Assembly: GCA_026416455.1 (NCBI GenBank) | Contig: JAOAFE010000012.1 | Location: 1 to 59,921 of the forward strand | Direction: 5' to 3' | DNA length: 59,921 nt | DNA from: Syntrophales bacterium | Lineage (GTDB): Bacteria > Desulfobacterota > Syntrophia > Syntrophales > UBA8958 | In this document: piece after piece, positions 36,787 to 42,638 of the stretch | Layout of the letters: every line of letters starts with the position of its first letter | How positions within the stretch are numbered: position 1 is the first letter of the stretch | The notes under the pieces: generated by a model | Databases searched by the model: none | Told to the model about the DNA's origin: nothing | What the model saw: the letters and a program-made list of their open reading frames with translations, nothing else | Program-made: the position numbers and the translations under genes

Positions 36787-38300
36787 AAACCTTTTTGGGG
36801 TGGAGCGAGAAGCTCTACCCCCATTTGTTTTACCCGTGCACGATCGACTGAACCGTCAGGTTTTTTGGGGATATCTGCGACGATCAGTACCCGCCGGGGT
36901 CGCTTATATCGTGCAATGCGAGCGGCTACGTAGCTTATGATCTCGTCTTCCGAAAGATGCTTGTTCTCTCTCAGAGTACAGACGGCGACGACCGTCTCCC
37001 CCCATTTTTCGTCGGGCACTCCGATCACGCACACTTCTTTTATATCGGTATGTGTCAGAATGACTTGTTCTACCTCTCGGGGGTAGACGTTTTCTCCCCC
37101 CGTCTTGATCAGGTCCTTTTCGGGCTTTCTTCCGGAGAAAATAAGGGTACCGTTGGGTAAGAGTTGTCCCAAATCACCTGTATGGTGCCATCCACCGCGC
37201 ATAGTATAGTTCGTCTCTTCTTTCAAGCGCCAGTAGCCCAGAAAAACTGATGGTGAGCGCACGCATATCTCTCCTACTTTACCTATCGGTAGTTCTCGGT
37301 CATCCTCATCCCGAATAGAGATGTGCGTAAGGAGTGTAGGATGCCCGATAGAATTCCTTTCTGCCCGATAGATGCCTCCTGAGACGGGCATACACTCTGT
37401 CTGACCGTAGATATGGTAGAAATTGGAGCCTGGATGGATGGAAAGAAATTGCTCGATCGTCTCTGGGGTGTCCACACCCCCCACCAGCCGAAGAGAGGAA
37501 GACACCTTATTTTCTTTCTTTTCCGCATCGAGAATGGCTGAAAGCATTGGAGGAAAGGTGATGAAAAAGGTAATCTGCTCCCGCTCAATGATTTCTGGAA
37601 CCTTTTCCGGTTCAAAGCGCGGGCTGATGACGTTTTTCCCTCCGACCATGATGGTTGCCAGGCTAAAGGCTAACCCTCCGATATGAAAGAGGGGTAGGAG
37701 ACAAAGATGACGGTCTTCTTCTGTAAGATTGAGGAGATGGGCGAGTTGTACCGCCGTGGATATTAGATTGGCATGCGTCAGCACCGCCCCTCTTGGTTTA
37801 CCACCCACGGCAGCCGTATGGATAATAAGGCAAGGACTGTCAGCGGATATTTCCTTTGAATGGTTGTTGTCCTCTTTATCCTTGCCCTTCGAGAAAACAT
37901 GTTCCATATCTTCGATGGGAAGGTCTTTCATCTTTGTTGCTGTTTTTTGCGCCAATGTAAGATAATTGGCCGAAGCGATAAATAGAGATGGCTTTGTATC
38001 TTTCAGCACGTGAACAATCTCCCCTTCACTCAAGCGTGTATTAATAGGAACAGCGATGGCACCAATCTGCCAGCAAGCAAATATGCTAAAAAGGAATCGG
38101 GGACTTCCCTCGGCTAAGAGGGCTACACGCGAGCGATGTCTTATCCCTTTATCTGTAAGATAGGCGGCAAGATATCTGACCTGGCGATAGACATCTGCAT
38201 AGGAATAACGCTCATTTCCCATGACAATCGCTTCTGCCTTTTCGTGGAAGGTCGCATGTTTTTCCAATAGGACCGCTATGTTGTAAGGCACTTGTTTCAT
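36783..38300 (-). CDS. AMP-dependent acyl-CoA synthetase
   Basis: The 505-residue ANL enzyme shows the domain order [35 protein letters not shown] (a divergent P-loop), [42 protein letters not shown] and a C-terminal [13 protein letters not shown]. The P-loop AAVGGKPRG lacks the usual (S/T)SGTTG(x)PKG wording, which may lower or change activity. It starts as ATGA overlapping the stop of gpmA, so the two genes are coupled although unrelated in pathway. The acid substrate is unknown. Confidence 0.85.
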
Positions 38301-39046
38301 GCGCTTTTTTTCCCCTGGTTTGCTACTGCTTGGATGGCCGCCTTAAGTGTCTCTTCGTCGGCCAGGTAGTAATGTCTTAATGGGTTGAGATCGTTGTCCA
38401 ATTCGTAAACGAGAGGAATTCCGGTAGGGATGTTGAGTTCGACGATGTCGTCATCGGATATACGGTCTAAATACTTAACTAGGGCGCGCAGGCTGTTTCC
38501 GTGGGCCACAATAATAACCCTTTTACCTGACTTAACGACCGGTGCAATCACCTCGTGCCAGCAGGGCATAAAACGGGCAATGGTATCTTTCAAGGATTCC
38601 GTAAGTGGCAGGTCGGTTTCTGGAAGATTTCCATACTTGAGTTCGTGTCCGGGATAGCGCTCGTCCTCCTTTGAGAGGGCAGGAGGCCTTACATCGAATC
38701 CCCGGCGCCATAGCTTAACCTGATCTTCACCATACTTGGCTGCCATTTCCGCCTTATTCAGGCCCTGCAGTGCTCCGTAGTGTCTTTCGTTTAGTCTCCA
38801 ATCTTTCACGACGGGTATCCACTGCAAGTCCATCTCCTCGAGGATAATGTTGAGGGTTTTTATGGCCCTCTTCAAGACGGACGTAAAGGCAATGTCAAAG
38901 AGGTAACCCTCCTTTTTCAAAATTCTTCCCGCTTCTCTGGCCTCGGCGATTCCCTTATCCGACAGATCCACATCCGTCCATCCGGTAAATCGGTTCTCCT
39001 TATTCCATATACTTTCTCCATGCCTAACAAGAACCAGCTTTTTCAT
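38297..39046 (-). CDS. gpmA: 2,3-bisphosphoglycerate-dependent phosphoglycerate mutase
   Basis: The 249-residue enzyme interconverts 3- and 2-phosphoglycerate. It begins [29 protein letters not shown], with the phosphohistidine in RHGE at residues 9-12. [24 protein letters not shown] and [19 protein letters not shown] follow. The catalytic Arg, Glu and His positions are present. The 39046 start has GGGGTGG upstream; a longer frame to 39112 lacks similarity. It is divergent from the plus-strand fluoride riboswitch transcript. Confidence 0.95.
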
Positions 39047-39164
39047 CTTCGCCACCCCTAATCGTTGCCGTAATGATTGGTTACAATGCCTTACCATGCC
39101 GGTCAAGGGCAAATTTAAGGTGTTGACTTTTTTGGCCGGTTAATCCATTTTCCGAGAAAATCTT

Positions 39165-39250
39165 GGGGCGATGAAGTTCGCCGGAACCGCCCGCCTTTGA
39201 ATTCCGGGCTGATAACTTCTACTTTACTTATCCATGAGAAGGGGGTTATC
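39165..39250 (+). promoter_or_regulatory. Fluoride riboswitch (crcB motif) A with translational platform
   Basis: GGCG (39167-39170) pairs with CGCC (39179-39182) as P1. GCCCG (39189-39193) pairs with CGGGC (39205-39209) as P2. GAAGTT (39173-39178) pairs with AACTTC (39214-39219) as the long-range helix, around the conserved AUG, GGAACC and UGAU elements, and it ends in CUAC. This order matches the crcB motif that binds fluoride. In the unbound state CTTCT (39216-39220) can pair with AGAAG (39237-39241), which overlaps the G-rich ribosome site (39241-39245). Fluoride should therefore turn on translation of the gene at 39256. Confidence 0.9.
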
Positions 39251-39255
39251 TCGAT

Positions 39256-39993
39256 ATGGAATCGAAGGCGCGATGTTCAACCATCAGTGAAAGGGATGGA
39301 CATTTCTTGCGTCCGTCGAACGGTGAAATCCATTACATTTGGTGGTACATGCAAGGTAGCATTATGAATCCCGAGGTGCGTGGTTCTCTGCGCCGTGCCT
39401 GGGGATTTTGTGAGAGGCATGCTTGGTTGGCCCTTTCCATCGAAGCTTCTCTCCGACATTCTTTCCTCATGGGTCCCGCGATCGTCTACGAAGAACTCAT
39501 GGGGCGGGCAAACCAGATTATGAAGAAGAGGGGTCCATGGGGCGGATTTAGACGGCTGACAGCCCTCCGGGCTCATGGCAGGTGCCTTATGTGTGAGATG
39601 GGTTTGGGACCGCACTCGCGGGGTTTCCCCTCTCCAGAAGTTGTGGTCAAAGCGCAAGATACGAGGGAACTTATGAATTTTGCTGAAATTACAAAACCAT
39701 TCTGGGAAATGACGGTCTGCGGAGTGTGCGCCGGTAGTGAAAGTAAGGTGCTCTGTAGGTCCCACTTGATAGAAGGCTTAGTCAAAGGTCATAAGGTAAA
39801 CTTGCAAGAGCAGAGGGAGCTAGTGAAATCTATCGCCAATCGCCTACATATTTATTCGAGGGCCTTTGTTTGGGAGCATCGCGGTACGGATACGATGGCC
39901 GACCGCGCTGCCCTCATCAGTGCCGTCGGTTGGACAAGTGGTTGGGGGCCCCTGATTCGTCTCGTCTATGATAGAAAGGGCAAAAGAAGCTGA
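39256..39993 (+). CDS. Cys/His-rich protein of unknown function under a fluoride riboswitch
   Basis: The 245-residue soluble protein has CxxC or CxxH pairs at RCLMC (residues 110-113), CGVC (155-158), GFCERH (52-55) and LCRSH (167-170), plus a lone Cys7. This suggests metal binding. It resembles the repeated 'CxxC ... GFCxxH' pattern of a DUF6062-like family, but with the first pair degenerate. No membrane segment or known fluoride exporter fold is seen. It is the only gene directly downstream of fluoride riboswitch A, and its 3' end overlaps the convergent operon by 28 bases. The function is unknown. Confidence 0.7.
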   Translation: MESKARCSTISERDGHFLRPSNGEIHYIWWYMQGSIMNPEVRGSLRRAWGFCERHAWLALSIEASLRHSFLMGPAIVYEELMGRANQIMKKRGPWGGFRRLTALRAHGRCLMCEMGLGPHSRGFPSPEVVVKAQDTRELMNFAEITKPFWEMTVCGVCAGSESKVLCRSHLIEGLVKGHKVNLQEQRELVKSIANRLHIYSRAFVWEHRGTDTMADRAALISAVGWTSGWGPLIRLVYDRKGKRS

Positions 39994-40823
39994 AAGGAAG
40001 AGATGGCCAAATAGGTGTCTTCCAAGGAGGCGATACCCGTATTGGTGGTGCGGGCATAACCTCCATTCACTCGATAGCAGGCTTGCAGGAAGTTAAATAT
40101 ACTTCCGGGATAGGTTGGGGAAAAGGAAAGCCAATGACATATTTCTAAGCCGGCCTGGATGTGTTCGAGGTAGGAAAAACGAATCCCCTTTATGTTTACG
40201 AAACCATGATTAATGTCTTCGCAAGCGGATAAAAAATCTGTAATGTTCCAAGGACAGGTTACGCCAAGGCCATCGAGAATGACCATAGCGTCCCTTGTTT
40301 CCATAAGGGTCGCCTTTATGTGCCCGAAGCCGCCACTTTCTTTTCGATGGTAGAGAACGAAAGAAGTGATCTGGTGTCTGCTCTTTTTTGGCACCTTTAT
40401 ATTCAGCCATTTTAAGGTGTTCACCAGAAAGTAAAGAGGGGCGAAGATGGAATTGGTCCCGGGAGGGAGAAGGGAGACGTCGTAAGCTTGGGTATGGGCG
40501 AAAAGGTATTCTCGAGGATCGTAAAGGGGTTTCAACTTTAAGAGGCGTAGACCCCCAATGGAAAAAAAGGCTTGGGAGAGGCTCTCGTATGAACCGTCTG
40601 GTCTTTGACGGGAAAGCAGAAAATCTGCCGTCTCTTTATCGAAGGATAGGCGATCCATTAAATGAAGAGTTGCTAGGGCGAAATAAGTGTCTGAGCAATT
40701 AGGCTCTTCTAAGCGGTAGAAGCAATAGCCTCCGGATTGGCATCGTCTCATTCTGATGTAATCCAATGTTGAATCGAGATGAGGAATGAACCTATGAAAG
40801 GAGATTTTTTTCGATACACACAT
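39966..40823 (-). CDS. Terpenoid-cyclase / prenyltransferase-fold protein
   Basis: The 285-residue protein has tandem alpha-alpha repeats of the squalene-cyclase and protein-prenyltransferase type. These are GGYCFYRLEEPNCSDTYFALATLHLM, FLLSRQRPDGSYESL, KESGGFGHIKATLMETRDAMVILDGL and NGGYARTTNTGIASLEDTYLAI. No DxDD cyclase motif or clear zinc set of farnesyltransferase is visible. ATG 40823 lies 10 bases after the dynamin stop, so it is the second gene of the fluoride riboswitch B operon. The role is unknown; it may bind a lipid or protein ligand. Confidence 0.65.
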   Translation of the reverse strand: MCVSKKISFHRFIPHLDSTLDYIRMRRCQSGGYCFYRLEEPNCSDTYFALATLHLMDRLSFDKETADFLLSRQRPDGSYESLSQAFFSIGGLRLLKLKPLYDPREYLFAHTQAYDVSLLPPGTNSIFAPLYFLVNTLKWLNIKVPKKSRHQITSFVLYHRKESGGFGHIKATLMETRDAMVILDGLGVTCPWNITDFLSACEDINHGFVNIKGIRFSYLEHIQAGLEICHWLSFSPTYPGSIFNFLQACYRVNGGYARTTNTGIASLEDTYLAISSFQLLLPFLS

Positions 40824-40833
40824 TTTCTGTGCC

Positions 40834-42510
40834 TTAGGCCTTGCCCAGCTCAAGCATTGCTTCGTCTAATTTTTTGATCATTGTCCCTATTTCTGCCGAA
40901 CGACCCTTCGTTTGCGACAAGATTGATTCGATGGTTTGAATTTCTTCCTTGATGTAGCGTGATGCCTGCTTGCGCATGTCCTCAATTGCCCGGTTTATAC
41001 TCATCTCCCATTGGGCCCCCAGACGGGAAAAATTGACAAATACCTCTCGGTAAACGAGGCGCAAAAAGTGCCTTTCGAAAAGGGGACGGAAGATGAACAT
41101 GGGGATCAAGAACCACAGGAGGTCAAAGTGAAATTCAAAGACGTGACCTACGCGGATATCGGGCCGTGCAGGTTCAATTACCTCTATCTTCCATTCCGCT
41201 GGGGCCATTTTTACTCCCAAAACACGCTCTATATTCATGCCGAGCATGGTCCTGAAGGTTTCCAGGTAACGTTCCAGGGCTGCTTGAGCCTTGATTAGTG
41301 TTCCGAAAAAGTGCTTCCGTTCCCGGAAGGAGATGACGTCTATCTCAGAATAAAGGTTTTGTTCCATCCACTCTTCGTACTGGCGGGTCAAGCGCCAGAG
41401 ATTGCCCTGCCATGAAGCCATATCTCTCTTCAGTTCTTCTCGAAGTCGATTTGCCATGGGGGCCCGAAAGGCCTCGAGATGTTTTTCTATGTGGGTTCGC
41501 GTATGGATGGCTTGGGCTCGGGTGAGCACAATGAGTTCTTCCTCGATTTGGGCAAGGTTTGATTTTTCCCCAAGAATTTGAGCCTTTAAGTTTTCCCTGT
41601 CCGTTTCCGCTTGTTGGGAAGTCTTAAGGGCTACTTCTAAGTAATCCCGAGTTGCCTGGGCGAGGGATCTGATCTTATGCTTGACAATGCTCTTGAATTC
41701 CCGATCTTTGTTTGCCGTGAGAGGTAATAAGAGCTCCATATCGAGACGGTGTTTGAACTTCTCTAAGTTTTCCCGGTTTGAGTAGAGGAAGATGGGAAAT
41801 TCCCGATTCAACTCTCGAGTCAAAGTTTCCTTAAAGAATTTAACTACTTCCTCTCTTTGTTCGGGCGTAATGAGATCTACTTTTGTGATCATGAGTACAA
41901 TGCGAGGGGTGTAACGGAGCAACTCTCGGATCAATCCGACGTCGTTTTCTGCCAACGGCCTTTCGGCACTTACGGCAAGGATGGCCGCGCCCACTTCAGG
42001 TAACCACTGTTCGGAGGTTTCCATGTGGTATTTAAATACACTTCCTAAACCGGGTGTATCCACTATTCTCAGTCCCTCATAATCCTCGAGGGAGGGAAGT
42101 TCTATGTCTACGACGGCCACATCTTTTTGGTTGGCAGGATTTTTAGCCTCCGAAGTAAATTCATCTAGCCTCTCCAAGGGGATTTCTTCTTCCGTGCCGT
42201 CGAAATGAGTAACTATGGCTCTTTCTTCCGGGCCGTACTTTAGTCTCGTGATCACCGTCGTGACGGGAATGACCCCCACGGGGAGAAGACGTCGCCCAAT
42301 TAGACTATTTATAAAAGAGCTTTTCCCGGCCTTAAACTGTCCCAAAATGGCCACATCTATTAAAGGTGATTGACTTACGAGGCGATTGGCAACCTGTAAT
42401 TCCCGCTGAAGGGAAAGGAGATTGAGTCCTTGGGTTGCTTCCTGCACGACTTTCAGTACCCCTTTGGCGGGGGTAGTAATAAAGGATGGGTTTGAATTGT
42501 TTTCTGTCAT
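40834..42510 (-). CDS. Dynamin-like GTPase under a fluoride riboswitch
   Basis: The 558-residue protein has a dynamin-family G domain with G1 GQFKAGKSSFINSL near residue 57, the G2 threonines in VIPVTTVITRL, G3 DTPGLGSVF and G4 TKVD. Long helical regions follow, and a hydrophobic segment LLWFLIPMFIFRPLF lies near residue 470, which could insert in the membrane like the paddle of bacterial dynamins. ATG 42510 has GGAGGCG upstream. The transcript leader holds a fluoride riboswitch and terminator. Bacterial dynamins remodel or protect membranes; a link to fluoride is an inference from position. Confidence 0.85.
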   Translation of the reverse strand: MTENNSNPSFITTPAKGVLKVVQEATQGLNLLSLQRELQVANRLVSQSPLIDVAILGQFKAGKSSFINSLIGRRLLPVGVIPVTTVITRLKYGPEERAIVTHFDGTEEEIPLERLDEFTSEAKNPANQKDVAVVDIELPSLEDYEGLRIVDTPGLGSVFKYHMETSEQWLPEVGAAILAVSAERPLAENDVGLIRELLRYTPRIVLMITKVDLITPEQREEVVKFFKETLTRELNREFPIFLYSNRENLEKFKHRLDMELLLPLTANKDREFKSIVKHKIRSLAQATRDYLEVALKTSQQAETDRENLKAQILGEKSNLAQIEEELIVLTRAQAIHTRTHIEKHLEAFRAPMANRLREELKRDMASWQGNLWRLTRQYEEWMEQNLYSEIDVISFRERKHFFGTLIKAQAALERYLETFRTMLGMNIERVLGVKMAPAEWKIEVIEPARPDIRVGHVFEFHFDLLWFLIPMFIFRPLFERHFLRLVYREVFVNFSRLGAQWEMSINRAIEDMRKQASRYIKEEIQTIESILSQTKGRSAEIGTMIKKLDEAMLELGKA

Positions 42511-42520
42511 TTTCGCCTCC

Positions 42521-42553
42521 AAAAAAAAACTCCTGCTTTTTTCATGCAGGAGT
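42521..42553 (-). terminator. Riboswitch-controlled terminator in the dynamin leader
   Basis: On the minus strand ACTCCTGC (42553-42546) pairs with GCAGGAGT (42536-42529) around ATGAAAAAA, followed by nine U. The left arm includes ACTCC, which the aptamer uses to pair with GGAGT. The aptamer and terminator therefore exclude each other. The ribosome site GGAGGCG begins directly after the U run. Confidence 0.88.
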
Positions 42554-42597
42554 CATCAGCCCGTTTTGGGCATTTTTAGCGGTGAACTCCATCACCT
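42546..42597 (-). promoter_or_regulatory. Fluoride riboswitch (crcB motif) B, transcriptional
   Basis: GGUG (42596-42593) pairs with CACC (42584-42581) as P1. GCCC (42571-42568) pairs with GGGC (42562-42559) as P2, around AAAAC. GGAGU (42590-42586) pairs with ACUCC (42553-42549). The conserved GAUGG, UUC and CUGAUG elements are in place, as in published Thermotoga and Pseudomonas crcB motifs. Bound fluoride should hold ACUCC in the aptamer and prevent the terminator, turning the dynamin operon on. Confidence 0.9.
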
Positions 42598-42609
42598 AAA
42601 TCGTTGTTA

Positions 42610-42638
42610 TTTAAATACATTATCATGTCCCTTGTCAA
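42610..42638 (-). promoter_or_regulatory. Promoter of the dynamin operon
   Basis: TTGACA on the minus strand (42638-42633) is followed after 17 bases by TTTAAA (42615-42610); the overlapping TATTTA gives a 15-base spacer. Either places the transcript start a few bases ahead of fluoride riboswitch B. Confidence 0.55.

Follow-up and report, generated by a model that had tools for sequence, protein, structure and literature searches.

The closest characterised analogue of the GTPase described here is IniA of Mycobacterium (PDB 6j72), a stress-induced protein in which a dynamin GTPase is combined with a helical bundle within about 560–600 aa. IniA is induced by drugs, cuts membranes in a GTP-dependent manner and has been proposed to have a role in membrane integrity (PMC6715688). 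The same dynamin class, with a two-bundle layout, includes Nostoc BDLP, the Campylobacter DLP pair and mitofusin/Fzo1. We know of no link of these proteins to fluoride, nor, to our knowledge, is LeoA/LeoBC under fluoride control. On the regulatory side, fluoride riboswitches of the RF01734 class govern known regulons comprising Fluc, CLC-F, Na+/H+ antiporter, enolase, pyrophosphatase and MutS genes, while HF entry, acidification and Na+/H+ antiporters are recognised parts of fluoride stress (PMC11139923). The locus analysed here uses the same aptamer, but its genes code for a dynamin, an alpha/alpha-toroid protein and a relative of DUF6062, none of which is present in the riboswitch-gene lists of PMC11139923 and PMC2864571. 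Both the riboswitch class and the dynamin superfamily are known; what is new is that the two are coupled, and that a fluoride regulon can consist of little else. Indeed, a full-text literature search did not retrieve any paper linking dynamins to fluoride riboswitches, an entry in the tables of Baker 2012 being possible.

The locus (39165–42638) is part of a window of 59,921 nt, the whole stretch of DNA that was analysed, from the contig JAOAFE010000012.1 of a Syntrophales bacterium (GCA_026416455.1). Two crcB-motif aptamers had been claimed in the original prediction, and the RF01734 covariance check, run by cmscan, matched both sites above the gathering score of 34 (Table 1); a scan of the whole genome gave two RF01734 sites, both at this locus. 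The aptamers are indeed opposed and inward-facing, with three ORFs between them, the spacing being 3.3 kb instead of the 3.4 kb originally proposed. The ORF ends previously reported for the two converging units (39993 on the plus strand, 39966 for the last minus-strand ORF) were found again, thus giving a 28-bp overlap at the 3' ends. The pseudoknot covaries between the two aptamers, being GAAGU/ACUUC in the plus-strand one and GGAGU/ACUCC in the minus-strand one, and a shared fluoride control of the three genes, as earlier suggested, agrees with the riboswitch data. As for the start codons, translation of the GTPase most likely begins at the ATG at 42510, behind a GGAGG, and not at the TTG at 42522 assumed before, and that of the toroid protein most likely at the ATG at 40823. 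A promoter consensus scan did not call the TTGACA listed in Table 1 as a candidate -35 box. Upstream, and divergent from the plus-strand riboswitch, a 2,3-bisphosphoglycerate-dependent phosphoglycerate mutase gene (38297–39046, minus strand) lies outside the control of the switches; the step catalysed by this enzyme directly precedes enolase, a classic fluoride target.

Table 1. Features of the riboswitch-bracketed locus (positions in the window).
Feature	Position	Strand	Evidence
Fluoride riboswitch aptamer (RF01734)	39158..39228	+	52.7 bits, E 8.5e-12
Candidate translational platform: 3' aptamer strand GAUAACUUCU can pair with AGAAGGGGGUUAUC, containing the ribosome site	39208..39252	+	Local fold
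DUF6062-like Cys/His protein, 245 aa	39256..39993	+	Profile-profile hhalign; Pfam alone makes no call
Alpha/alpha-toroid (prenyltransferase-beta-like) protein, 285 aa	39966..40823	-	PF00432 E 3.8e-13, model
Dynamin-like GTPase, 558 aa	40834..42510	-	PF00350 E 1.2e-24, G1-G4 motifs, model
Conserved hydrophobic segment DLLWFLIPMFIFRPLFERHF of the GTPase, candidate membrane contact	41065..41124	-	Alignment, DSSP of model
Intrinsic terminator GACUCCUGC-N9-GCAGGAGUU-U7, sharing a strand with the aptamer 3' pseudoknot ACUCCU	42520..42556	-	Leader fold
Fluoride riboswitch aptamer (RF01734)	42540..42605	-	55.9 bits, E 7.6e-13
Candidate -35 box TTGACA, GTPase operon promoter	42633..42638	-	Sequence only

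Fluoride binding and induction by both leaders are predicted from the RF01734 class, and the two leaders differ in their putative expression platforms. In the minus-strand leader, whose fold of -30.5 kcal/mol (z -3.62) was not equalled in stability by any of 200 shuffles, the last aptamer strand ACUCCUGC doubles as the 5' arm of a perfect terminator, so that the platform and the aptamer pseudoknot are mutually exclusive. Fluoride would keep ACUCCUGC in the pseudoknot, thus blocking the terminator and making the leader a transcriptional ON switch. A terminator was found at the same place in 16 of 67 homologous GTPase leaders by a strict, ungapped pattern search. The local fold of the plus-strand leader (-10.1 kcal/mol) has a z of only -0.99, no better than shuffles, so the pairing listed in Table 1 is readable but statistically ordinary; if it forms, fluoride binding would free the ribosome site in AGAAGGGGGUUAUC and act as a translational ON switch for the DUF6062-like gene.

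Among bacterial dynamin-like proteins, the minus-strand GTPase belongs to a clade of its own. Its G1-G4 motifs (GQFKAGKS, PVTT, DTPG and TKxD) are invariant in 21 homologs. The best Foldseek match of its AlphaFold model, which is of moderate quality (pLDDT 81.9, pTM 0.67), is IniA (E 1.4e-19); BDLP, mitofusin/Fzo1 and the Campylobacter DLP pair match it as well. Structure alignment of the model by VIA-align gave a Z of 21.1 over 483 residues with an rmsd of 12.8, so that the orientation of the domains is only provisional, and comparison over the full length with IniA and with BDLP gave TM-scores of about 0.34; the model has the helical bundles and the BDLP/IniA-like overall fold expected of a dynamin. 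Identity with IniA is as low as about 17–18%, and the inducers of the latter are cell-wall drugs instead of a fluoride riboswitch. With BDLP, the Campylobacter pair and mitofusin/Fzo1, good alignment is confined to the GTPase domain and the first bundle. LeoA gave a weak PADLOC match to the GTPase (E 8e-12), but no LeoBC partner is present at the window locus. In a tree of 85 proteins the riboswitch-linked GTPases group together, far removed from the other dynamins included, the branches between them being very long (7.8 and 9.2 changes per column).

According to DSSP of the GTPase model, the loop that joins its two longest helices contains a hydrophobic segment, DLLWFLIPMFIFR, which was found in all of the 77 full-length homologs measured. 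In the alignment that gave the G1-G4 motifs, D462, W465, F466, L467, P469, M470 and F473 of this segment are invariant. In BDLP and IniA the membrane contact is in this same place, the loop between the long helices. Fold family and segment together suggest a possible membrane role of this region. IniA binds lipids by a charged loop (PMC6715688) and not by a hydrophobic segment.

That this GTPase family is under fluoride control is nearly certain from the sequence data. A search with the single GTPase sequence retrieved no related loci, whereas an alignment-based search succeeded; 80 homologs were gathered by conserved protein patterns, blind to riboswitches, and their loci were scanned with a covariance model derived from 46 of the order's own aptamers. 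Homologs lacking the riboswitch had been named in the original prediction as evidence against it, and the opposite outcome was obtained, since 67 of the 80 are preceded, on their own strand, by one at a distance of no more than 500 bp. In 8 further loci, which include Spirochaetota, Ignavibacteriota and Bacillota, the switch is elsewhere in the locus and heads the operon or an adjoining one. As to the remaining five, one (L173) starts at a contig end, one (L182) has a weak upstream match of 20.7 bits, and at three (L117, L180 and L192) no switch was found by the scan. In the order Syntrophales the GTPase is the commonest gene directly behind fluoride switches, being the first gene after 24 of 50 riboswitches, as compared with 10 for the Na+/H+ exchanger and one for Fluc. 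More distant dynamin genes of the same genomes are on switch-free contigs. A second, distantly related dynamin (32–33% identity over the GTPase domain) follows a switch and precedes a toroid gene in L095:5300-8172, and shares one cluster with a toroid gene and a switch in L106:725-5314, which suggests that dynamin function itself is wanted at this place. Results at the level of sequence are thus the presence of the riboswitches with platforms of the ON type, the arrangement of the operons and the coupling of GTPase and switch across phyla.

In the same genome region as L117, a GTPase of 64% identity (L078:8047-9723) is without an upstream riboswitch, although a Na+/H+ exchanger gene of this genome (L101) is preceded by one. 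Moreover, at L098:6104-6166 (G006), L109:5856-5917 (G013) and L092:7616-8060 (G056) the switch is followed only by a short C-terminal fragment of a GTPase, with about 45–60 matching residues in ORFs of 70–130 aa, being either decayed copies or short stand-alone proteins.

The toroid protein was modelled with a pLDDT of 90.0 and has a fold close to that of RabGGTase beta (TM 0.63–0.71); its family carries the signature GG[YF]CFY[RK]L.EPN..D. Unlike in RabGGTase beta and the other protein prenyltransferase beta subunits, the Asp-Cys-His ligands are not conserved: in the homolog alignment no D-x-C pair was found in the repeats, and the sole candidate histidine (231) is replaced by Tyr or Phe in a number of homologs. 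Neither is a gene for an alpha subunit present at the locus. With its zinc ligands missing, the toroid was no longer considered to be an active protein prenyltransferase of the zinc type.

The product of the plus-strand gene had been described as an unknown Cys/His-rich protein. On profile evidence this Cys/His protein is no longer unknown, being a divergent relative of DUF6062. A Pfam search gave no PF19538 (DUF6062) match for the window protein, and its L112 homolog scores 19.9 against a cut-off of 27; hhalign of the profile of these two proteins against a DUF6062 cluster profile gave instead a probability of 96.5% (E 9e-10). The window protein is without the first CPxC pair. DUF6062 loci from 199 Bacillota genomes served as an independent check: in L219, L220 and L221 a riboswitch scoring 32 to 57 bits is about 99–120 bp upstream, and in a few others it is farther away on that side. 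DUF6062 may thus be a wider fluoride-response family. A 614-aa protein in a fluoride cluster (L144:4009-5853) has a C-terminal DUF6062 domain behind about 400 N-terminal residues without recognised relatives; it was considered as a dynamin-DUF6062 fusion, and the DUF6062 half alone was supported.

Several genes sharing clusters with the GTPase in relatives have long been known behind fluoride riboswitches (PMC11139923, PMC2864571). Across the 80 loci the partners are enolase (28), Na+/H+ exchanger (22), HIT (19), toroid (12), MutS (12) and DUF6062 (9), and genes for AAA ATPase, Usp, MFS, H+-pyrophosphatase and TauE-type transporters occur as well. In this respect the original prediction needs amending: through its relatives, the locus is linked to known fluoride genes. 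The window locus can accordingly be seen as a stripped-down form of a larger fluoride island, and the further fluoride genes of other carriers imply that the GTPase may be auxiliary.

As originally stated, no known exporter is encoded by the three genes, and no match to PF02537 (CRCB/Fluc) or PF00654 (CLC) was found in the Syntrophales genome, where neither switch controls a transporter. The same searches were positive in 10 and 12, respectively, of 14 control genomes; as the assembly is a draft in 44 contigs with a completeness of 95.8%, a small Fluc gene may have escaped. Fluc was detected in 2 of 60 relatives of the order; of 30 GTPase carriers belonging to several phyla, 2 have it. CLC proteins are present in 19 of the 60 relatives, and their assignment to CLC-F was rejected, every readable motif being GxEGP and none GEVTP; a few could not be read by the pattern, and those with a readable motif look chloride-type. 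A fluoride exporter is present in more than 85% of surveyed strains and the exporter-free ones are mostly symbionts (PMC11139923), which makes its absence here unusual; within the order this absence is shared by the whole lineage and is not confined to GTPase carriers. Of the named relatives, most are genomes from the environment or from digesters, and the lineage looks free-living.

These data are consistent with a response that does not work by export, as earlier suggested. We regard the chances as even that the GTPase, the toroid and the DUF6062 protein form a minimal, export-free fluoride-response island. A wider and more tentative proposal, which we consider possible but somewhat doubtful, makes the dedicated dynamin clade the core of an export-independent system: free-living anaerobes lacking Fluc and CLC-F would tolerate fluoride through membrane upkeep driven by dynamin, in which the toroid and DUF6062 proteins are partners. 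In the island itself, rising cytoplasmic fluoride would switch on the GTPase and its RabGGTase-beta-like toroid partner, together with the Cys/His protein of DUF6062 type. The GTPase would then assemble on the inner membrane, its contact being the hydrophobic tip that lies between the long helices. GTP hydrolysis would remodel or reseal the membrane, which would thereby stay tight despite HF influx and acidification and the threat they pose to the proton-motive force. The toroid would bind a lipid, an isoprenoid or a peptide and serve as an adaptor, and the DUF6062 protein would bind metal. Membrane upkeep by the GTPase under HF and fluoride stress is suggested by analogy with the drug-induced IniA.

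The main rival is that the GTPase has a general job in the cell, at the membrane or elsewhere, and is poisoned by GDP-metal-fluoride, the switch just raising its amount. Overproduction of fluoride-sensitive enzymes, such as enolase and pyrophosphatase, is an accepted logic of riboswitch-controlled genes (PMC11139923), enolase shares the cluster at 28 of the 80 loci, and a GDP-AlF4 complex has been solved for the dynamin-family protein Vps1 (6djq). A housekeeping role predicts, however, copies beyond fluoride control, whereas members of the clade are found almost exclusively with the fluoride switch and it is the other dynamins of the same genomes that are switch-free; we thus consider this explanation unlikely. 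Export would still operate if the GTPase and toroid aided an unrecognised fluoride or proton transporter encoded elsewhere in the genome, and the Na+/H+ exchangers, MFS and TauE-type transporters of related clusters fit such a role, but with no transporter governed by either switch of the Syntrophales genome this appears rather improbable.

P-loop GTPases bind GDP-AlF4 and MgFx. With its invariant G1-G4 motifs, an abundant GTPase in the GDP form could in principle trap MgFx or AlFx and lower free fluoride. We deem this highly improbable: stoichiometric trapping needs very large amounts of protein and leaves the dynamin helical region and the conserved hydrophobic tip unexplained, and nothing in the data speaks for the metal-fluoride handling also put forward in the original prediction. 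A chance occurrence of riboswitch-like sequences beside unrelated genes can practically be dismissed, being contradicted by the E-values of both aptamers (at most 1e-11) and by the recurrence of the switch at 67 of 80 homologs.

The locus provides a concrete candidate for fluoride resistance without export in a lineage that looks free-living, a defined inducer for a clade of bacterial dynamins and a stress context for DUF6062 and the toroid family, with a bearing on engineered microbes that free fluoride from organofluorine compounds. Among the relatives' clusters, a gene pair was also observed downstream of the fluoride-switched GTPase in L139:7685-9387, as well as in L159, L167, L169 and L172, coding for a 230-aa protein with a weak NifU_N match and for a GGGtGRT protein (PF14057, E 1e-186).
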